A DNA stretch of 49,188 bases. It comes from Oscillospiraceae bacterium. Lineage in GTDB: Bacteria; Bacillota; Clostridia; Oscillospirales; Oscillospiraceae. The translations under genes were made by a program, and so were the position numbers. The notes below the pieces were generated by a model. The model was not told where the DNA came from and ran no database searches. It saw only the letters and a program-made list of their open reading frames with translations. Where the stretch lies: the NCBI GenBank assembly GCA_902798545.1, contig CADBWQ010000029.1:1-49188 (forward strand). The letters are read 5' to 3'. Positions 17,203 through 19,473 of this stretch are shown here, in pieces (within the stretch, counting starts at the first letter, position 1; every line of letters begins with the position of its first letter).

Positions 17203-19473
17203 TTACGCTTCAAAGCTCTCGGTGTACTCCGCAATGAGCTTCTTCAGTTTCCCAAGCTGTTCCTCACCCAGCTTTTTGCCGCTCATGATGTGCTTTTTCA
17301 GATCCGGATACCGGCTGTTCACATAGGGCAACAGGCCCTTTTCATAGCGGGCAATGTCCTTCAGCTCAACGCCGTCGGCATAACCTTCGCTCACCGCATA
17401 GATGGAGATCACCTGATCCGAAGCCTCCATCGGGGCATACTGGCCCTGCTTGAGAAGCTCTGTCATACGGTCGCCGCGGTGCAGCGTGGAACGGGTCGCC
17501 TTGTCCAGGTCGGAGCCGAACTGCGCAAACGCAGCCAGCTCTCTGTACTGGGCCAGATCCATTCTCAGACGTCCGGCCACCTGCTTCATGGCGCCCAGCT
17601 GGGCCGAGCCGCCGACACGAGAGACCGAGAGGCCGACGTTGACCGCCGGACGTACACCGGAGTTAAAGAGGTCCGTCTCCAGGAAGATCTGTCCGTCGGT
17701 GATGGAGATGACGTTCGTCGGGATATAGGCGGAGATATCACCCGCCTGCGTCTCGATGATGGGCAGGGCCGTCATGCTGCCGCCGCCGGCTTCCTCGCTG
17801 AGTCTTGCCGCGCGCTCCAGCAGTCTGGAGTGCAGATAAAAGACGTCGCCGGGATAGGCCTCACGTCCGGGCGGACGGTGCAGCAGCAGGGAGATCTCAC
17901 GATAGGCCACCGCCTGCTTGGAGAGATCGTCATAGATGATGAGAACATCCTTTCCCTTGTGCATGAAATATTCGCCCATGGCCGCGCCTGCATAAGGCGC
18001 GATATAGAGCATCGGGGCGGACTCGGACGCGCTGGCGCAGACCACGATGGTATAATCCATCGCATTGTGCTCGCGCAGCTTCTGCACACAGCCTGCCACC
18101 GTCGACTCCTTCTGGCCGATGGCGACATAGATGCAGATCATGTCCTTGCCCTTCTGGTTGATAATGGTGTCGATAGCGATCGCCGTCTTGCCGGTCTGAC
18201 GGTCGCCGATGATCAGCTCACGCTGGCCGCGTCCGATGGGGACCAGGGCGTCGATGGCCTTGATACCGGTCTGCATCGGAACCGACACCGGGCGGCGCGA
18301 AATCACGCCGGGGGCCGGGCTCTCAATCGGCCGGGTCTCGGTGGTGTGGATTTCACCGCCGCCGTCGATAGGATTGCCGAGGGAATCGACCACACGGCCG
18401 ATCATCTCCTCGCCCACCGGAACTTCGATGATGCGTCCGCTGCGGCGGACCTCATCGCCTTCCTGCAGGCCGGAATAGTCGCCCAGCAGCACGACGCCGA
18501 TGTTGTCCTTCTCCAGGTCCATCACCATGCCGCGCAGATCCCGGTTAAATTCAATCAGCTCGCCCGCCATGGCATCCGATACGCCGGCGATGCGGCAGAT
18601 GCCATCGGAGACGCTGATCACGGTCCCCTTCTGGTAGACCGCCGTTTCATTGTCTGCCTTGGCCAGCTCTTCCTTCAGCGCGTCAATGAGCGCTTCGTCG
18701 TCGTGTTCGAGGACACTGACCGAATCCCTGACCCGCTGCAGCATGCCCTTGAGGGTGCTGTCATAGACGGTGTCGCCGACTTTCAGGTAGGCGCCGCCGA
18801 TGAGACTTTCATCCGCGCCGGTCGTGATCCGGATCTGATCCTCTGTCGCGGTCTCCCCCGCCTCATGCAGGGCGTGCAGGATGGCAGCCTTTACCCGGAC
18901 GATGTCCTTTTCCGGCGTCTCTGTCACGCCGTGCATCTCCACCGGGATGAAGCCCTTCTCCTGAAAGGCCATCAGGTCGCCGCGGGTGATATGGAGCTTT
19001 TTCTCCGCCCGGTCGATCAGGCGTTCCGTCATCCGGGCCCGGGCATCGGCGTACTTTTCGTCCGCCAGCAGAACCGCCGCCTGATTGATCACCTCTTCCA
19101 TGGTGTCACGGGTCAGGGCGGTGCGTGCGGACTTTGTCTGATACTGCAGGGACTTCTCGTTGTCCTCGTTCAGCTCTTCCACCGCTCTGCGGCTCAGGGC
19201 CTCCGCGCGCTCCTTCTCCGCCGTTGCGGACTCGCGCGCCGCACTCAGGATGCCGGCGCACTCCTTCTCGGCATCACTGTTGGTCTGGTCGATTCCATCC
19301 AGAAGCGTCTTTGCGTTTGCCGACGCAGCGTCCGCCGCCTGGAGCGATTCTTCCACCTGGGCTCTGCGCCCGCCGAGCATCTTCGGTACGAGTTTTCTTC
19401 CGATAAAATACAGTGCCGTCGCAAGGATGGCAAAGTTAATCAACCCGTAAATCAGGGTATATCCCATTCTCAT
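17203..19473 (-). CDS. Fused ATP synthase b'-delta-alpha subunit
   Basis: One uninterrupted frame of 756 residues has three parts. Residues 1-160 look like a b-type stalk subunit: one membrane helix (about 5-27), then a long charged Ala/Glu-rich helix. Residues about 165-253 match the C-terminal domain of delta/OSCP ([26 protein letters not shown]). Residues about 258-756 are a complete alpha subunit with Walker A GDRQTGKT (423-430). The N-terminal helical domain of delta, which normally grips the N-terminus of alpha, is not seen. AGGAGGG precedes the start. No separate atpH or atpA is present. A b-delta fusion is known in mycobacteria; I do not recall a b'-delta-alpha fusion. It creates a stoichiometry problem because alpha is present three times per enzyme. 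Confidence 0.9.

Follow-up and report, generated by a model that had tools for sequence, protein, structure and literature searches.

The alpha subunit is normally present three times per ATP synthase, and the C-terminal domain (CTD) of delta is the part of that subunit that binds b. ATP synthases described to date have one a subunit per enzyme, and Ueno et al. (2025; PMC12229609) reason that the delta N-terminal domain (NTD), which lies on the threefold axis, restricts FoF1 to one stalk. In their engineered Bacillus PS3 FoF1, deltaDeltaN-alpha (PDB 9jc1), the NTD was deleted and the CTD fused to alpha. The resulting complexes had as many as three stalks, every one of them accompanied by an a subunit; the reported H+/ATP ratio is 5.8 versus 3.0, and the epsilon CTD was also removed. 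The average is given as about two stalks, with three being rare on cryo-EM grids, and the authors state that a multi-stalk enzyme with stalks stably bound to F1 is still needed. According to the same report, Acidaminococcus fermentans has a natural deltaDeltaN-alpha, and two UniProt entries show comparable features. A different fusion, the delta/b "Rosetta Stone" of actinobacteria, joins b to delta and is described for Gordonia and some Mycobacterium (PMC5709465).

The fusion gene and its operon

The window, as we call the whole stretch of DNA analysed here, comprises 49,188 nucleotides of an Oscillospiraceae bacterium (assembly GCA_902798545.1, contig CADBWQ010000029.1). A gene on its minus strand (17203..19473, from an ATG at 19473 down to 17203) encodes 756 residues and is preceded by a strong ribosome-binding site, AAGGAGG (19486..19492, minus strand). 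The sequence-only reading of this DNA had described the single frame as a b-like arm, a delta CTD and a full alpha subunit, and Pfam and NCBIfam agree. Residues 1-175 (18949..19473, minus strand, as are all parts of the gene) make up the b-type arm, assigned from a Pfam ATP-synt_B match at residues 6-129 and from the AlphaFold2 model, and residues 176-252 (18718..18948) make up the delta (OSCP) CTD, assigned by Pfam, AlphaFold2, and Foldseek. The OSCP match at residues 196-251 corresponds to profile positions of about 114-171 of 172, which is the C-terminal domain only, so the absence of the delta NTD noted in the same reading is borne out by Pfam and the fusion does not hold the full delta of canonical FoF1. 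Residues 253-281 (18631..18717) comprise a linker, variable among relatives, and a helix (262-271) positioned like the N-terminal helix of alpha. A complete alpha follows (residues 282-756; 17206..18630), with three Pfam domains (282-346, 403-618, and 625-749) and the nucleotide-binding motif GDRQTGK, which is kept among relatives. NCBIfam identifies residues 262-754 as F-type atpA (TIGR00962, 795 bits versus a cut-off of 484), and the alternate-F1 alpha model TIGR03324 stays under its cut-off (647.6 versus 750.5 bits).

All genes of the operon lie on the minus strand, in the order atpB (a subunit, 20276..20959; Pfam), atpE (c subunit with the motif MIEALTIY, 20003..20233; Pfam and comparison of c sequences), atpF (free b of 141 aa with a C-terminus shorter than that of b in other classes, 19516..19941), the fusion gene, atpG (gamma, 16321..17190; Pfam), atpD (beta, 14952..16317), and atpC (epsilon of 86 aa with the N-terminal domain only, 14676..14936; Pfam). 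Thus a, c, b, gamma, beta, and epsilon are all found within one operon, as in FoF1, atpF adjoins the fusion directly upstream, and there is a single atpB. In the window atpD is split over two frames, with the break near 15.77 kb; five of five close relatives checked have an intact beta frame (loci L066, L067, L068, L070, and L071; L numbers denote loci and G numbers genomes), so the break is either a recent lesion or an error confined to this sequence. The shortened AtpF, the epsilon without its CTD, and the split atpD had escaped the sequence-only reading.

Other features of this region were also observed. A short tandem duplication (19936-19960, minus strand) spans the atpF start codon and is missing in L066. 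When the window (14700-20300) is compared with L066 in 150-base bins, identity is mostly 89-100% across the F1 half of the operon, only 59-79% in the region of the b arm, atpF, and c, and about 86% in the flanks; relative to L066 the operon is a recombination patchwork with one edge within the fused gene. An antisense open frame of 1442 aa (15550-19878, plus strand) overlaps the operon and is probably a high-GC shadow frame.

The sequence-only reading had seen no separate atpH or atpA, and searches of the whole genome, a draft of 3.03 Mb in 50 contigs that is 91.8% complete, give the same result. Genome-wide, PF00213 matches only the CTD of the fusion at E <= 1, with no separate delta, and PF00006 matches only the fusion, the two beta pieces, and two V-type subunits, with no separate alpha. 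The latter two lie on contig C11 (109-111 kb) in frames of 589 and 459 codons, which we take to be the A and B subunits of a V-type ATPase. No further b was found genome-wide, where PF00430 matches above the cut-off are AtpF and the fused arm; one match below the cut-off (16 bits) lies on another contig.

Conservation of the fusion among relatives

A first comparison within the genus revealed a full-length fusion without stops in 22 of 36 genomes, at 53-76% identity, and also in two genomes of other families. A wider genus sample comprised 102 genomes including the window's own, and atpA was found in 70 of these, at 71 places. At 61 of the 71 places (60 of the 70 genomes) it lies in an open frame of 739-815 codons. 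Domain scans of all 61 long frames find b, delta CTD, and alpha together in 60, the sole exception being G493 (L277), where the delta part is below threshold. The 10 genomes without a long frame include five that are cut by contig ends (G002, which is frame-broken too, G005, G016, G021, and G442), two that are broken by a stop or frameshift (G446 and G026), two with a deltaCTD-alpha operon instead (G434 and G448; L186 and L187), and one (G483) whose delta is separate and whose alpha has a broken frame. The normal separate genes that relatives might have had at this locus, which the earlier reading named as evidence against itself, are therefore not what nearly all of the genus carries, and the triple fusion that it proposed to look for in related genomes occurs in most atpA-bearing genomes of the genus sample and in other families.

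A second count was made on the 80 best of 328 relatives found, which overlap with the genus genomes, so that the two counts are not independent. In 77 of these 80 named loci a single frame covers b, delta, and some or all of alpha; the three exceptions are L083 (a stop inside the b part), L141 (truncated by a contig end), and L144 (a delta match under the threshold). One or more further b frames are present at 79 of the 80 loci, and a separate delta was found at none of them. Every one of the 80 records is labelled as metagenome-assembled or uncultured, with rumen or gut as a frequent source, and the record of L106 is Candidatus Limivicinus faecipullorum. Oscillospiraceae, a name that many of the records bear, is a family of Eubacteriales in the NCBI taxonomy.

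In a sample of the order, the b-delta profile gives matches below E 1e-30 in 17 of 394 genomes besides the window's. Sixteen of these 17, genomes of other families, have frames of 736-784 codons, all carrying b, delta CTD, and alpha; in the remaining one (G178) a frame of 521 codons covers b, delta, and a portion of alpha. Beyond the order, the same profile revealed no further triple fusion at E <= 1e-18 in samples of 391 genomes of the class and 398 of the phylum. Apart from the window, the class sample has a single match, G509, in which deltaCTD-alpha is accompanied by a separate b, and the frames of the 24 other phylum matches are 167-285 codons long (four fetched, L224-L227).

The arm evolves faster than alpha. 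The median dN/dS is 0.30-0.34 for the arm and delta part versus 0.08 for alpha (54-55 close pairs), and on these ratios the arm and delta part are under purifying selection that is weaker than that on alpha.

Architecture classes and phylogeny of alpha

Operons of the order were sorted with HMMs built from relatives, and ten representatives were scanned with Pfam. Class I has separate delta and alpha genes (L190 and others). In class II the whole delta is joined to alpha (L151-L156, open frames of 670-706 codons), and in class III the delta CTD is joined to alpha and one free b is present (L158-L177 minus L165, plus others, frames of 579-634 codons). Class IV, to which the window belongs, has b-deltaCTD-alpha plus one free b. 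Nineteen of the 24 class III rows in the tree have a delta match to the local model, and five (L158, L160, L172, L175, and L176) were assigned by the length of the N-terminal extension alone; among these five, Pfam OSCP passes the cut-off in L158 and L176, is weak (14 bits) in L160 and L172, and is absent in L175. Two related arrangements were also seen: L178 has a free delta CTD of 74 aa (4002-4226), and L157 (3523-5565), a class III relative, has two delta CTD copies ahead of alpha. The a subunits of class III (L157-L187) mostly score low with a locally built a-model (38-56 bits), and many of its c subunits have long N-terminal extensions.

Class IV forms one clade in a 91-row alpha tree (SH-aLRT 99); rows of classes II and III fall in other parts of the tree, interspersed with some of class I. 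A single origin of all delta-alpha fusions is rejected by the AU test on a clade of II+III+IV (p 8e-57), as is a clade of III+IV (p 4e-34 on the alpha tree); because we defined the groups with the tree already in view, used a quick search, and have two rows with long branches, we read these values only as at least two histories of delta-alpha fusion, or transfer and loss. The operons of G434 and G448, genomes of the window's own genus, group with class III, another lineage, which suggests that they were likely acquired by horizontal transfer. Four genomes (G127, G265, G287, and G329) have an unfused alpha beside the fused alpha, as a 540-codon frame in G329 and within whole separate-gene operons in the other three.

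Partner subunits of the class IV enzyme

The free b of class IV has a median of 142 residues from model start to stop (range 139-148, 31 operons), versus a minimum of 155 in the other classes (60 operons), and is about 20 residues shorter, at the C-terminus. The short AtpF suggests that the fused b is the one that reaches delta and that AtpF is its putative coiled-coil partner. Epsilon lacks its CTD in 20 of the 23 class IV operons where epsilon was found, compared with 5/29 in class I, 0/6 in class II, and 2/24 in class III. The essential Glu of c is kept in 92/92 sequences. Class IV c subunits have Q in 32/32, and the Glu is followed by Ala in 30/32 and Leu in 30/32 (E-A-L); Thr or Ser follows it in 24 of 30 class I rows. 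We take Q plus E-A-L to be a proton-type site, and the coupling ion of the window's enzyme would then be the proton. The a-subunit motif that was searched for is kept in class IV, with a pattern that is tuned to this class and misses many sequences of the other classes, so that it does not serve to compare them.

Predicted structure of the fusion protein

An AlphaFold2 single-chain model of the fusion was built with 69 homologues (mean pLDDT 82.5); one chain cannot show assembly. The model predicts a helix at residues 5-136, the start of which would be in the membrane by analogy with b, helices at 139-159 and 164-173, an alpha/beta domain at 176-252, the helix 262-271, and then alpha, with lower confidence in the linker 253-281. 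The top PDB match of the whole model by Foldseek is 9jc1_I (TM 0.87 by target length). When residues 158-284 (pLDDT 87.3) are searched alone, 9jc1 is again first (E 2e-4, query TM 0.53), and delta/OSCP chains come next. By phmmer, fusion residues 213-745 align with 34-567 of 9jc1_I in one uninterrupted stretch. VIA-align, which is rigid, matches essentially the alpha part; 9jc1 is absent among the 50 matches listed, and the method adds nothing on the arm.

Discussion

The fusion, its conservation, and the loss of the delta NTD are established. Given the fusion and no separate alpha found, the stoichiometric puzzle that the sequence-only reading raised, three alphas for a single stalk, holds. 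In the mechanism that we propose, each alpha chain would carry covalently, in this order, a membrane-anchored b arm and the delta CTD. Because the delta NTD, the proposed single-stalk limiter, is gone, all three alpha positions would be able to carry an arm, and because the b arm is covalent on alpha, three arms would be present on every F1 unless they are processed. Each arm would probably pair with one free, shortened AtpF helix into a b/b' stalk, and each stalk reaching the membrane would probably bring its own a subunit to the c-ring. The option that three stalk arms form, one of several that had been listed, gains support from the engineered enzyme, whose delta is truncated and fused in the same way; by analogy with that homologue, these two changes would suffice for multiple stalks and a subunits (PMC12229609).

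We judge the chance to be slightly better than even that every alpha brings a stalk arm pairing with AtpF and that the enzyme is multi-stalk, probably with a high H+/ATP ratio. More tentatively, and somewhat short of an even chance, the enzyme may be a permanently multi-stalk natural FoF1 with three tied alphas, three a subunits, and an H+/ATP ratio close to the c number, making ATP at very low proton-motive force or, in reverse, pumping many protons per ATP. For this enzyme the stoichiometry, the b/b' pairing, and the physiological benefit are what we infer.

Several stalks are familiar from V-type enzymes, and three arms might be made here while only one a subunit docks; the extra stalks would then brace F1 without adding proton paths, and H+/ATP would be c/3. 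The operon has a single atpB and its sequence is silent on the number of a subunits bound, and the fusion itself provides three arms unless processed. However, stalks of the engineered enzyme are reported always to have kept an a subunit, and three of these fitted round the c10 ring (PMC12229609), and we regard docking of only one a subunit as unlikely. It is likewise improbable, in our estimate, that the enzyme has a single stalk, in which one arm docks with AtpF and a while the other two are proteolysed or hang unused. Such an enzyme would accord with the F-type enzymes described to date, which have one stalk (PMC12229609), and trimming would be invisible in DNA, with the variable linker of lower model confidence lying between arm and alpha; yet the arm and the delta part are conserved and under purifying selection, and the NTD thought to enforce one stalk was found neither in the fusion by Pfam nor elsewhere in the genome by PF00213.

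A mixed assembly of one fusion and two plain alphas per enzyme, with free alpha made from an internal start, had been left open in the sequence-only reading and is disfavoured by a scan of 69 genes, to the point that we hold it very unlikely. Some in-frame start with SD >= 5 occurs within residues 225-305 in 16/69 genes, but these starts are scattered, no position being common to more than four genes, and in seven control windows the number of genes with such a start is 5-54 of 69. Codon identity in blocks 241-270 and 271-300 is no higher than in the alpha part, and across residues 225-305 of the 69 genes we saw no internal start for free alpha that is conserved. The window itself has no internal start at SD >= 5 in this range, in agreement with the earlier remark that no good internal ribosome site lies near residues 244-290, and the fusion's own start has SD >= 5 in 55/69 rows. 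Finally, joining of separate genes by an assembly or sequencing artefact, for which one could cite the second frame break (atpD) and a draft in 50 contigs, is refuted by the relatives: dozens of other assemblies, with identities as low as 47%, have the same frame. Canonical alpha and delta copies were not found in the genome.

The deltaDeltaN-alpha arrangement, both as a multi-stalk design and in its natural occurrence, is already in print (PMC12229609). We found no account in the open-licence literature of the triple fusion b-deltaCTD-alpha, of the clade that it forms, or of the graded series of architectures. By analogy, the enzyme should work like the engineered multi-stalk one. Up to three stalks instead of one may hold together the enzyme of an uncultured gut and rumen genus, whereas until now such an arrangement has been engineered, in a related form, and for natural enzymes no more than predicted. 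If three stalks and three a subunits are indeed present, c-ring size is not the only factor that sets how many protons an ATP costs in nature, gut and rumen fermenters would possess a low-gear synthase, and evolution would have arrived at what was designed in the laboratory, with a covalent stalk in addition. The enzyme is also a natural, covalently tied candidate for testing the independence of several a subunits, and the steps can be compared within its order, where separate genes, whole-delta-alpha, deltaCTD-alpha, and b-deltaCTD-alpha all occur.

Comparison with known systems

To our knowledge the N-type ATPase, like the window's enzyme, has no complete delta gene, and a delta match is absent in the N-type loci L224 and L225. 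These loci show the order beta-epsilon-a-c-b-alpha-gamma given for this type in PMC5709465, without a fusion, whereas the window has a-c-b-fusion-gamma-beta-epsilon; the N-type alpha is far off in the tree. The canonical FoF1 of the same order (L190 and others) is like the window in its gene order a-c-b-delta-alpha-gamma-beta-epsilon and in its one free b gene, and unlike it in that the window's delta is halved and joined to alpha, with a second b-type segment in front. The actinobacterial b-delta fusion presumably keeps the delta NTD, as we take it from mycobacterial structures, and the window's fusion is without it. The two share b and delta in one chain and a single adjoining b gene, but alpha is separate in the actinobacterial operons as described and attached in the window (PMC5709465).

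The closest likeness in the comparison is to the engineered deltaDeltaN-alpha PS3 enzyme, in which the NTD is also absent and the delta CTD sits on the alpha N-terminus, with nearly equal spacing by phmmer; the epsilon CTD is absent naturally in the window's enzyme and deliberately in the engineered one. The class III deltaCTD-alpha operons of the order resemble the kind described in that report (PMC12229609). Its text names no fused b for the natural deltaDeltaN-alpha cases, and its PS3 enzyme has free b2 dimers and does not test a fused b, whereas the window combines a fused b arm with a shortened free b. Because its b is not free only, the window's enzyme is a variant, rather than a plain member, of the deltaDeltaN-alpha FoF1.
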